Shown here piece after piece: positions 33,781-53,057 of a stretch of DNA of 64,000 nt. Every line of letters starts with the position of its first letter. The stretch's first letter is position 1. Made by a program: the position numbers and the translations under genes. The notes under the pieces are model-generated. The model searched no databases, was not told the origin of the DNA, and saw nothing but the letters and a program-made list of their open reading frames with translations. The DNA comes from Streptomyces showdoensis (lineage in GTDB: Bacteria > Actinomycetota > Actinomycetes > Streptomycetales > Streptomycetaceae): positions 1 through 64,000 of the forward strand of contig NZ_BAAAXG010000011.1 of NCBI RefSeq assembly GCF_039535475.1, in the 5' to 3' direction.

Positions 33781-34632
33781 TCAGTCGTGCGGGACCAGCG
33801 CCACCGGCGCCGGGCTGTGGTGCATGACCGCGTGGGCCACGCTGCCGAGGTGACCGCCCAGCACCGACCTGCGGGTGCGCCGGCCGACCACGACCAGCGC
33901 CGCGTCCCCCGCCCCGCGTACGAGTTCCTGGCCGGCCGAACCGATCAGCACCCGCCCGTCCGCCACCACGTCCGGGAACTTCGCGCGCCACGACTCCAGG
34001 AGCTCGTCCAGCGAGTGCCGGATCGCCGGGGTCACCGCGGGCCGGACGTCCGGCACCATGGCCGGGCCCAGGCCCGCGTAGAAGGGCAGCTGCTGGACGT
34101 ACACGACCTCCAGGCGGCCGCCGCGCAACGCCGCCTCCTCGAAGGCGAACCCCAGGATGCCGTCCGCCGGTTGCCGTACGTCGACCCCGGCCACCACCGG
34201 GCCGTGCCGGGCCGCGTCCCCGGCCCGTACCAGGACGACGGGCCGCTCGATCCGGCCGGCGACGGTCATGCCCACGGAACCGACGAGGTACCCGGCCACA
34301 CCGCCCAGCGCGCGCGAACCCAGGACCAGCAGTTCGCCCTCCTCGCCCGCGGCGACGAGGCTCGTCACCGGGGCCGAGGGCAGGACCCCGGTGGTCACGG
34401 CGAGCCCCGGCCGGCGCTCGCGCAGCCCGGCCGCCGTCCGCGCGAGCAGATCCTGGGCCCAGGACTCCACGGGCTCCCGCGACACGAGCGGCACGAGCGC
34501 GTCGGGCGAAGGCTCCAGCACGTGCACCAGACGTACCCCGGTGCCCCGCAGAACCGCCTCCTCGGCCGCCCACTCGGCGGCGGCGTGCGCCTGCTCCGTG
34601 CCGTCCAGACCGACGACGATGCCCTGCGTCAT
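33781..34632 (-). CDS. Two-domain universal stress protein
   Basis: The 283-residue protein has two UspA folds. The first holds a good ATP loop, LGSRALGGVAGYLVGSVG; the second has a weaker VGRRTRRSVLGGHLGSVAH. It begins IVVGLDGTEQAHAAAEWAA. Tandem-domain USPs of this type (such as Rv2623) bind ATP and affect growth and dormancy. It starts six bases after the CBS gene and both are one operon. Confidence 0.88.
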   Translation of the reverse strand: MTQGIVVGLDGTEQAHAAAEWAAEEAVLRGTGVRLVHVLEPSPDALVPLVSREPVESWAQDLLARTAAGLRERRPGLAVTTGVLPSAPVTSLVAAGEEGELLVLGSRALGGVAGYLVGSVGMTVAGRIERPVVLVRAGDAARHGPVVAGVDVRQPADGILGFAFEEAALRGGRLEVVYVQQLPFYAGLGPAMVPDVRPAVTPAIRHSLDELLESWRAKFPDVVADGRVLIGSAGQELVRGAGDAALVVVGRRTRRSVLGGHLGSVAHAVMHHSPAPVALVPHD

Positions 34633-34638
34633 GACCGT

Positions 34639-50486: not shown

Positions 50487-52235
50487 ATGGGGCGTGACGA
50501 CCCGGAGCGGGCCCACAGCGGGATCCCGCGCCTACGACTCGACGAGCTGCTCGACGAGCTCCAGGTGCGCATCGACGAGGTGCGCGGCACCCGGGACCGG
50601 CTCAACGGGCTGCTCGAAGCCGTCATGTCCGTCGGCCGGGAACTGGACCTGCCCCAGGTGCTGCGCGGCATCGTGGAGGCGGCCGTGACCCTGGTGGACG
50701 CCGAGTACGGCGCCCTGGGCGTGATCGGCGACGACCGGCGGCTCTCGGAGTTCCTGCCCGTCGGCATCGACGACGAGCTGCGCGAACGCATCGGCGCCCT
50801 CCCGTCCGGGCACGGCCTGCTCGGCGAACTGATCCGCAACCCCAAGCCGCTGCGCCTCGCCGAGCTCTCCGGGCATCCCGCCTCGTACGGGTTCCCCGCC
50901 CACCATCCGCCGATGCACTCGTTCCTCGGCGTGCCCGTGCGCGTCCGCGACGAGGTGTTCGGCAACCTCTATCTCACGGAGAAGCGCGGCGGCGCCGACT
51001 TCGACGCGGAGGACGAGGCCGTCGTCACCACGCTCGCCGTCGCCGCCGGCATCGCCATCGAGAACGCCCGCCTCTACGAGGAGGGGCGGCTGCGCCAGCG
51101 CTGGCTGGCGGCGAGCTCCGCGCTGACCAGTGCCCTGCTCTCCGGTACGGCGGAGAGCGAGGTCCTCGACGGCATGCTGGAGCAGGCCGTGGACATCGCC
51201 GGCGCCGACATGGGCGTGTTCTACCTCGTCGGGCCGGGCGGCGAGCTGCGCGGCTCGCTGGCCCGCGGCGAGGGAGCCGACGAGCACCGGGGCGTCGTGC
51301 TGCCGAGCAGCGAGGGCACCCTCGCCGCGGCGGCCCTCGCCCAGGACGGGCTGGTCACGGTCGCGGACGTCGAGCACGACGGGCGGGTCACCGTGCAGCC
51401 GGAACGGTGGACGGGCTTCGGCCCCGCGGTGGCCGTCACGGTCGGCACGAAGGAGCGCCTGAGCGGTGTGCTGATCCTGGCCCGGAGCAGGGGCCGGGCG
51501 CCCTTCACCGGGGCCGAGATCGCCGCCCTCCCCGGCTTCGCGGACCAGGCGGCCCTCGCCCTCGAACTGGCCGACCGCCGCCGCGACTCCGAGCAGGTGA
51601 GCCTCCTGGAGGACCGCGACCGCATCGCCCGCGACCTGCACGACCTGGCGATCCAGCGGCTGTTCGCGACCGGGATGACGCTGCAGAGCGCCCGCCGGTT
51701 CGTCGAGCACCCGGAGGCCTCGGACCGGCTGAACCGGGCGATCGACGACCTGGACGCCACCATCAAGATCATCCGGGCGACCATCTTCGGCCTCCGCGAG
51801 CATCCGCCGCCCGGGACGGCGCCCAAGCTCAGGAACCGCATCGTCAAGGCGGTCGACTCGGCCGCGTCCACGCTCGGCTTCACCCCCGCCCTGCGCATGG
51901 AGGGCCTGCTCGACACGGACGTGCCGCCCGAGGCGGCGGACGAGGTCGTCGCGGTCCTCGGCGAGGCGCTCACCAACGTGGCCCGGCACGCGGGGGCCCG
52001 CCGCGCGGAGGTGGCGGTGGTCGCCGAGGACGGCGTCCTGGCGGTGGCGGTGAGCGACGACGGCGTGGGCATCGGGCCCGGCGGGGCCCGCAGCGGACTG
52101 CGGAACCTGGCCGAGCGGGCCGAGCGGCTGGGCGGCGACCTGTCGGTCCTCGCCCGCCCGGAGCCGCCCGGCGGCACGCTGCTGGAATGGCGGATCCCGC
52201 TGACCCCGGACGGGGAGCGGGAGCCGGAGCCCTGA
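50487..52235 (+). CDS. osdK: GAF-GAF sensor histidine kinase of the DevS/DosT (OsdK) type
   Basis: The 582-residue protein has GAF-A (about 55-196), GAF-B (about 225-365), a HisKA_3 dimerisation domain with phospho-acceptor His385 in [13 protein letters not shown], and HATPase_c (about 470-575; [15 protein letters not shown]). In GAF-A the block [20 protein letters not shown] includes His140, which by my recall lines up with the proximal haem His149 of mycobacterial DevS, so oxygen or redox sensing by haem is plausible. No membrane segment. ATG at 50487 is behind CGGAGG. It ends base to base with the stop of the response regulator (TGATCA). Confidence 0.88.
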
Positions 52236-53057
52236 TCAGGGGGCCCCGGGCGGGTGGTCGTGACCGTCCCCGCGCCCGCCGCCGTCCCCGTGCCCGCCGC
52301 CGTCCCCGTGCCCGCCGCCGTCCCCGTGATCCCGTCCGTCCCCGTGATCCCGCCGCTCCTCGTGCTCCCGCTGCCCGTCCTCGTGCCGGTCGTGCTCGTG
52401 GGCCTGGGCCGCGATCACGGCCGCCTGCACCCGGCGCTCCACGCCCAGCTTGCCCAGCAGCCGTGAGATGTGGTTCTTGACCGTCTTCTCCGACAGGTAG
52501 AGCCGTTTGGCGATCTGCCGGTTGGTGAGCCCCTCGCCGATGAGTTCCAGCACGGAACGCTCCCGCTCGGAGAGCACCGCCAGCCGCTCGTCCTCCGGGG
52601 GCTTCGGGGCCTCGGGATCGCGCAGCGAGCGCATCAGGCGGGCGGTGGTCGCGGGGTCGAGCATCGACTGCCCGGTGGCCACGGTCCGTACCGCGGCCAC
52701 CAGGTCCGAGCCGTTGATCTGCTTGAGCACGTAACCGGCCGCCCCCGCCATGATCGCGTCGATGAGGGCGTCCTCGTCGTCGAACGAGGTCAGCATCAGA
52801 CAGGCCAGCCCGGGCAGCCGGGAGCGGAGCTCCCGGCACACGGAGATCCCGTCCCCGTCGGGCAGCCGCACGTCCAGCACGGCCACGTCCGGCCGCAGGG
52901 CCGGTCCCCTGGCCAGCGCCTGGTCCGCCGTCGAGGCCTCGCCGACCACCTCCATGTCGGCCTCGTCGTCGAGCAGGTCGCGCAGTCCCCGGCGGACGAC
53001 CTCGTGGTCGTCCACGAGGAAGACGCGGGTGACGGTCTCGGGCGGCGCCTCGGTCAT
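52236..53057 (-). CDS. osdR: NarL/FixJ-type response regulator of the DevR/DosR (OsdR) type with a His-rich tail
   Basis: The 273-residue protein has a receiver domain (about 10-130, phospho-Asp62 in VAVLDVRLPDGDG, with LTS and VLK partner residues) and a LuxR-type helix-turn-helix (about 158-215, GLTNRQIAKRLYLSEKTVKN). After residue 218 it has a tail with ten His and many Asp/Gly residues, coded by an 18-base repeat at 52,283-52,340; mycobacterial DosR has no such tail. It is expected to bind the GGGnCC palindromes of the island after phosphorylation by the convergent kinase. ATG at 53057 follows no strong site. Confidence 0.88.
   Translation of the reverse strand: MTEAPPETVTRVFLVDDHEVVRRGLRDLLDDEADMEVVGEASTADQALARGPALRPDVAVLDVRLPDGDGISVCRELRSRLPGLACLMLTSFDDEDALIDAIMAGAAGYVLKQINGSDLVAAVRTVATGQSMLDPATTARLMRSLRDPEAPKPPEDERLAVLSERERSVLELIGEGLTNRQIAKRLYLSEKTVKNHISRLLGKLGVERRVQAAVIAAQAHEHDRHEDGQREHEERRDHGDGRDHGDGGGHGDGGGHGDGGGRGDGHDHPPGAP

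Follow-up and report, generated by a model that had tools for sequence, protein, structure and literature searches.

We found that positions 33,781 to 53,057 of a 64,000-nt stretch of Streptomyces showdoensis DNA very probably encode a hypoxia/NO (nitric oxide) dormancy regulon of the Osd/DevR (OsdKR/DevSR) type, as judged from the sequence. The stretch, hereafter the window, covers positions 1-64000 of contig C11 (NZ_BAAAXG010000011.1) of an 8.5-Mb genome in 29 contigs, and has a G+C content of 75%. Within it, a cluster rich in universal stress proteins (USPs) and also encoding Acg-, Hsp20-, Rv1733c-, nicotinate phosphoribosyltransferase (NAPRT)- and CBS-type proteins surrounds a sensor kinase and its presumed response regulator, and DevR/OsdR-like boxes occur at the promoters of the island. 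Two traits are new relative to the known system: the sensor and regulator genes lie tail to tail, which is unusual, and a cyanate-detoxifying cassette is found inside the island. The products of the island would let the mycelium sit out periods of low oxygen. A dormancy-type (Osd/DosR) island had been proposed in the original prediction, and is supported here by a pair whose nearest structures are DosT/DevS and DevR and by S. coelicolor OsdR-like boxes in the island promoters.

The kinase gene (osdK/devS-like; 50487..52235, plus strand) encodes 582 residues arranged as GAF-GAF-HisKA_3-HATPase, the domain order of the DevS/DosT/OsdK family. Among 177635 distinct PDB sequences, its first GAF domain (GAF-A) had its best match in 2vzw (65% identity over 143 residues; 191.8 bits), a chain that we take to be DosT although its title goes no further than "probable histidine kinase response regulator"; DevS chains came next (168.0-171.7 bits). 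The presumed haem residues, His140 and Tyr162, are 22 residues apart, presumably the same spacing as between the haem ligand His149 and the distal Tyr171 of DevS. The regulator gene (osdR/devR-like, NarL family; 52236..53057, minus strand) encodes a receiver (Response_reg) and a LuxR-type helix-turn-helix (GerE) domain, with DevR (3c3w) as the best PDB match (58% identity over 202 residues; 244.6 bits vs 142.2 for the next, VraR). Its Asp62 and the EKTVKN motif at 190-195 align by offset with what we take to be Asp54 and the DNA contacts (K-K-N) of DevR. The pair is therefore of the haem-type DevS/DevR-like kind that had been predicted. The regulator also carries a His/Gly/Asp-rich C-terminal tail of ~54 residues (52239-52400), possibly metal-binding; as a defining feature of OsdR this tail was rejected, being long in a few relatives (such as L036, L039, L055, L056 and L064) and short in most of those listed.

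On these features, GAF-A would bind haem, the loss of O2 or the binding of NO or CO would alter autophosphorylation of the kinase, and phosphate would move from the kinase to the convergent DevR-like regulator. The closer match of GAF-A to 2vzw, the presumed DosT, than to DevS argues against a kinase that senses mainly redox state or NO and not O2. We nevertheless give that alternative a chance only somewhat short of even, because DevS of S. coelicolor is described as a sensor of NO that contains haem and autophosphorylates less when an NO donor is present (PMC4766573). For S. coelicolor OsdR, PMC5069765 gives a figure of 61%.

A position weight matrix built from the 26 sites of Table 1 in PMC5069765 was run over the 64-kb window, where seven sites scored at least 10. 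Four of these (36772, 39725, 39750 and 49268) fell within the 1521 nt of intergenic DNA of the island, a number that none of 1000 dinucleotide shuffles of this DNA reached; likewise, among 300 column-permuted matrices there was none with three or more of its seven best sites there. The boxes, given here without strand, lie before usp3 (36772..36787; score 14.0, joint best in the 64 kb), before hsp20 (39725..39765, with two boxes at 39725 and 39750 scoring 10.9 and 12.4) and in the divergent cbs-bon3/usp4 promoter (49268..49283; 14.0, with weaker sites at 49289 and 49338), and a weak box (35443..35458; 9.4) occurs between cbs-bon1 and usp2. With operons assigned from gene spacing, the units behind a box of at least 10 would be usp3-ABC-ABC, hsp20-fld-rv1733, cbs3-acg-mbl-cbs2 and usp4-osdK (12/20 genes), and adding the weaker site would also cover cbs1-usp1 and usp2 (15/20). 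In the same scan, no box headed osdR, NAPRT, cynS, cynT or lysR. The regulator would thus bind the boxes at the island promoters and turn on the USPs, the CBS-BON proteins, the Hsp20-flavodoxin-Rv1733c unit, the USP-ABC exporter unit and the Acg oxidoreductase.

The box at the divergent cbs3/usp promoter is conserved: the best site reached at least 10 in 34/35 loci and at least 12 in 26/35, the window included. Three of the four window boxes scoring at least 10 carry one GGACC half and that at 39750 carries a GGTCC half; among the 35 cbs3/usp promoters, the best site combined one GGGCC with one GGACC half in 25, and was a full palindrome in two. Elsewhere, at G000:C26:1267952-1268095, one box-like sequence occurs four times, in steps of 32, 32 and 64 bases.

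The clustering of these genes is real and recurrent. The 19 kb of the island hold 8/19 matches to the Usp profile and 3/5 matches to the BON profile in the 8.5-Mb genome. We further surveyed 80 named loci, chosen by their kinase, with flanks of up to 10 kb of which some ended at contig ends; the closest named kinase relatives are from Streptomyces gardneri, narbonensis, flavochromogenes and zaomyceticus (84-87%). At least three of eight island gene classes were found in 58/80 loci (34 with three, 16 with four, seven with five and one with six), two classes in 13 and one class in a single locus. Genes for USP (67/80), CBS (61/80) and Acg (56/80) proteins were the most frequent, and mbl (14/80), fld (10/80), rv1733 (9/80), naprt (9/80) and hsp20 (8/80) were less so. 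The concentration of Usp and BON genes, together with the fact that in other Streptomyces, too, this kinase has USP, CBS and Acg genes beside it, shows that the clustering is not due to chance, as had been suspected of the combination from the start. The variable content of the loci (mbl, naprt and hsp20) would fit a general stress cluster that owes its cohesion to position and to expansion of USP genes, with no oxygen sensor regulating its members jointly. We consider such a cluster improbable, given the shared boxes, their conservation in relatives, and the high frequency of usp, cbs and acg around the kinase in these kinase-chosen loci.

The layout of the pair sets the island apart from the S. 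coelicolor system. The kinase and regulator genes converge such that stop codon abuts stop codon (52235/52236), with 0 bases between them. Of 88 kinase entries surveyed, 69 were convergent with a regulator within 1.5 kb, six lay kinase-first on the same strand, two were divergent and 11 had no near regulator. In a genus sample of 150 genomes, which included the window's own and was counted among the matches listed, 27/28 kinases with at least 69% identity were convergent with a regulator at most 839 nt away, and for the remaining one the nearest listed regulator was 4.1 kb away. The 121 listed kinases below 69% comprised 21 convergent, 18 regulator-first on one strand, six kinase-first and seven divergent cases, as well as 45 far from a regulator and 24 on contigs where no regulator was listed. 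These last two classes are overcounted, as only listed matches were considered and one partial match was left out per table; a convergent pair on contig C2 of the genome itself was for this reason counted among them. Both layouts can occur in one genome (G025, for example, has a kinase at 73% that is convergent and one at 59% that is regulator-first), so the convergent and regulator-first arrangements represent types of paralogue. We found no description of the convergent layout in the literature searched, in which subscription papers were mostly out of reach.

In S. coelicolor, the system is listed as RR-HK (response regulator, histidine kinase; PMC9739842), and osdK follows osdR in a single operon that has a box at osdR (Table 1, PMC5069765); in the window, by contrast, the genes converge and osdR has no box. 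The osdR promoter of same-strand pairs had a box of at least 10 in 17/18 cases, 16/18 having a full GGGCC-N4-GGCCC palindrome. A box of at least 12 within 420 nt of osdR occurred in 2/59 window-type entries vs 14/17 other convergent ones. Within 1000 nt, a box was found in 19/59 window-type entries, and further out in others: in many window-type relatives osdR is directly preceded by a cbs gene, and the box lies ahead of that gene. The idea that the whole convergent clade lacks box control of its regulator was therefore dropped. In the window, the gene 25 nt ahead of osdR encodes an aldo-keto reductase. Since usp4-osdK lies behind the 49268 box and osdR lacks one, feedback would act on the sensor and not on the regulator, in this genome only, with the regulator raising the kinase itself through usp4-osdK.

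The next-closest kinase (55%) and regulator (67%) of the genome are also convergent, on contig C2. Their locus (L008, C2:72000-91500) contains six boxes of at least 18 (positions 9335, 9491, 9515, 12311, 14549 and 14573), five of them full palindromes, and the pair adjoins a COX1 gene (529.8 bits) and a gene for a globin-FAD-NAD flavohaemoglobin. Among 17 loci with a kinase at ~49-55%, L008 included, a COX1 relative was found in three, a flavohaemoglobin relative in three and at least one of the two in five, so that the link is real here and not general. Five C2-type loci picked out by eye (L008, L174, L175, L176 and L188; convergent, regulator 65-67%) had at least one of the two in four cases. 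In S. coelicolor, flavohaemoglobin is placed under NsrR and narG2 under DevSR (PMC4766573). Two further OsdK-like kinases (G000:C26:1606216, 46%; C26:3151176, 41%) and a lone OsdR-like regulator (C26:1745501, 62%) are reminiscent of SCO3948 and SCO3818.

These paralogues raise the alternative that the island is a genuine DevR-box regulon with its boxes read mainly by the C2 regulator or the lone C26 regulator, the local pair serving another signal. Both regulators are similar to that of the window (67% and 62% identity), the C2 locus boxes share their core with those of the island, EKTVKN is common to the window and C2 regulators, and S. coelicolor OsdK also phosphorylates the orphan regulator SCO3818 (PMC9739842). 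Nonetheless, loci selected by a window-type kinase retain the cbs3/usp box, usp4-osdK itself lies behind a box, and 5/6 of the C2 boxes are full GGGCC-N4-GGCCC whereas all four island boxes of at least 10 have a GGACC (3/4) or GGTCC (1/4) half. We therefore regard reading by another regulator as unlikely, although worth keeping in mind. We also propose, tentatively and as a possibility of rather low probability, that this clade splits its dormancy response between two DevSR-type paralogues, a survival island vs an oxidase and a flavohaemoglobin, with the abutting gene ends acting as antisense. In such a division, the convergent pair of the window would govern the USP/CBS/Acg island through boxes that are mostly GGGCC-N4-GGTCC hybrids, and would feed back on the kinase (usp4-osdK) and not, in this genome at least, on the regulator; the second pair would govern the COX1-type oxidase and flavohaemoglobin through full GGGCC-N4-GGCCC palindromes.

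Gene starts in the island were picked from coding signal and ribosome-binding sites and are thus putative, and families were assigned by Pfam and NCBIfam profile search, the latter against curated cut-offs. All families named in the original prediction were placed in this region by these searches. Each of the four USPs matched PF00582 twice: usp1 (33781..34632, minus), usp2 (35683..36543, plus), usp3 (36936..37931, plus) and usp4 (49460..50392, plus). The three CBS-BON proteins (PF00571 twice and PF04972) are encoded by cbs-bon1 (34639..35376), cbs-bon2 (45317..45976) and cbs-bon3 (48561..49190), all on the minus strand; the BON match of cbs-bon2 is borderline, at 24.6 bits (cut-off 27) in one profile search and at 27 in another. 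Separated by a gap of 6 nt, cbs-bon1 and usp1 are likely cotranscribed. Downstream of usp3, and on the same plus strand, lie the genes for an ABC transporter ATPase (37936..38877; PF00005, ABC_tran), an ABC-2 type permease (38874..39692; PF12679, ABC2_membrane_2), the small heat-shock protein Hsp20 (39857..40306; PF00011), a flavodoxin-domain protein, fld (40303..40872; PF12724, Flavodoxin_5), and an Rv1733c-family membrane protein (40923..41486; NF050032, 99.9 bits, cut-off 80). The flavodoxin-domain protein matched HemG (PRK11104) weakly (24.6 bits, far below the cut-off of 142). On the minus strand are the NAPRT gene (41611..42945; NF009131, 611.2 bits, cut-off 330) and acg, for an Acg/Rv3131-family FMN oxidoreductase (47494..48567; Nitroreductase; NF047509, 299.2 bits, cut-off 199; 2ymv Acg). 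Outside the island, the protein encoded at 56029-57294 matched a phage receptor-binding beta-propeller platform domain (PF21311, 50.1 bits).

The predicted gene list, correct in what it named, had overlooked three genes: cynS, for a cyanase (43029..43499, minus; PF21291, PF02560; TIGR00673, 200.1 bits, cut-off 113.3), a cynT-like gene for a beta-carbonic anhydrase (43589..44224, minus; PF00484, 151.8 bits) and a gene for a LysR regulator, presumed CynR (~44279..45265, start unsure, plus; PF00126, PF03466). Together (43029-45265) they form a cynTS-cynR cassette, cynT-cynS with a divergent LysR gene as in the known cassette but here inside a dormancy island, where it parts cbs-bon2 from NAPRT. 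Elsewhere, cbs2 and NAPRT are direct neighbours (L037, L040, L055, L146, L148, L149 and L150, with match ends 18-69 nt apart). Cyanase was found in 40/150 sampled genomes (41 matches, the window's own genome included), and 30 of the 41 matches were retrieved together with 1.5 kb of flanking sequence. Leaving the window aside, 27 of the other 29 had a carbonic anhydrase gene alongside, 25 a LysR gene and none NAPRT; conversely, no cyanase occurred at the 80 named kinase loci (within flanks of up to 10 kb, some of them truncated) or at the 29 other NAPRT loci examined, so that cyanase as a general island member was dropped. As cbs2 and NAPRT elsewhere leave no room for cyanase, and other cyanases have no NAPRT beside them, the cassette was most simply inserted at this site. 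NAPRT, 83 nt behind cynS, may perhaps have come under CynR. No paper linking cyanase to universal stress in Streptomyces was found in our literature search.

The MBL/beta-CASP nuclease gene, mbl (46014..47436, minus; Lactamase_B), belongs to the RNase family that had been predicted, but is not intact. Its product matches the TTHA0252 RNase up to residue 314, where a run of seven G (46484-46490) breaks the frame: at this run both the frame and the third-position G+C shift, similarity continues in a second frame to 46014, and the frame in its present state stays open to 45973. In ten relatives compared, the run is only two to four G long. A match was found in 19 other named kinase loci; in 11 of these the gene was open over its full or nearly full length, which led us to reject a conserved programmed frameshift; the others had a stop at the same codon (L054), a frame change elsewhere (L019), a degenerate gene (L069) or only part of it (L031, L032, L034, L037 and L087). 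The break is either a sequencing error or a true one.

The M. tuberculosis DosR (DevR) regulon includes USPs, Acg/Rv3131, Rv1733c, Hsp20, NAPRT (PncB2), a CBS protein and DevR/DevS/DosT, types that are all present in the island, and its Rv3134c-devR-devS genes lie together on one strand. The CBS-BON fusion, the ABC exporter and the flavodoxin-domain protein are local to the window; to our knowledge, the mycobacterial CBS protein Rv2626c has no BON domain. The DosR counterparts claimed in the original prediction thus hold for the USPs, Acg, Rv1733c, Hsp20 and NAPRT, although not every part is exact, because NAPRT is cut off, the nuclease is broken and Rv2626c is not known to carry BON. The S. 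coelicolor Osd region (SCO0167-SCO0219) shares with the island a DosT/DevS-like kinase, a DevR-like regulator, USP-rich surroundings, a nitroreductase-family gene and the same box (PMC5069765); it differs in holding nitrate reductase and pyruvate phosphate dikinase, which are not among the window's 20 called genes, and the window in holding the cyanase cassette.

Several observations weigh against an Osd/DevR-type regulon. Three of the seven best boxes lie outside the island (123, 20382 and 57976), and none of at least 10 was found in the window scan between 49283 and 57976, leaving osdR without a box. Genome-wide, loose box patterns were not enriched over the reversed pattern (58 vs 82; 141 vs 151), so that the motif alone is no proof, and a genome-wide regulon prediction by loose pattern was dropped. 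Eight of the 80 kinase loci held none of the eight island classes, the cyn cassette separates NAPRT from the box-headed operon, and the three closest DevR-like regulators of the genome are all candidate readers of the island boxes. Finally, expression, binding to the boxes and haem are argued from sequence.

With an Osd/DevR-type regulon in this island, the experimentally known DevSR/OsdKR dormancy switch would gain a Streptomyces form whose sensor and regulator genes run towards each other. If the response is indeed divided between paralogues, the abutting and sometimes overlapping 3' ends, which are conserved, could set the ratio of kinase to regulator by mutual antisense. Direct tests of how a haem-sensor dormancy circuit is rewired may be possible in soil Streptomyces, as may tests of whether a single genome keeps its low-oxygen programme for survival proteins apart from that for respiration and NO.

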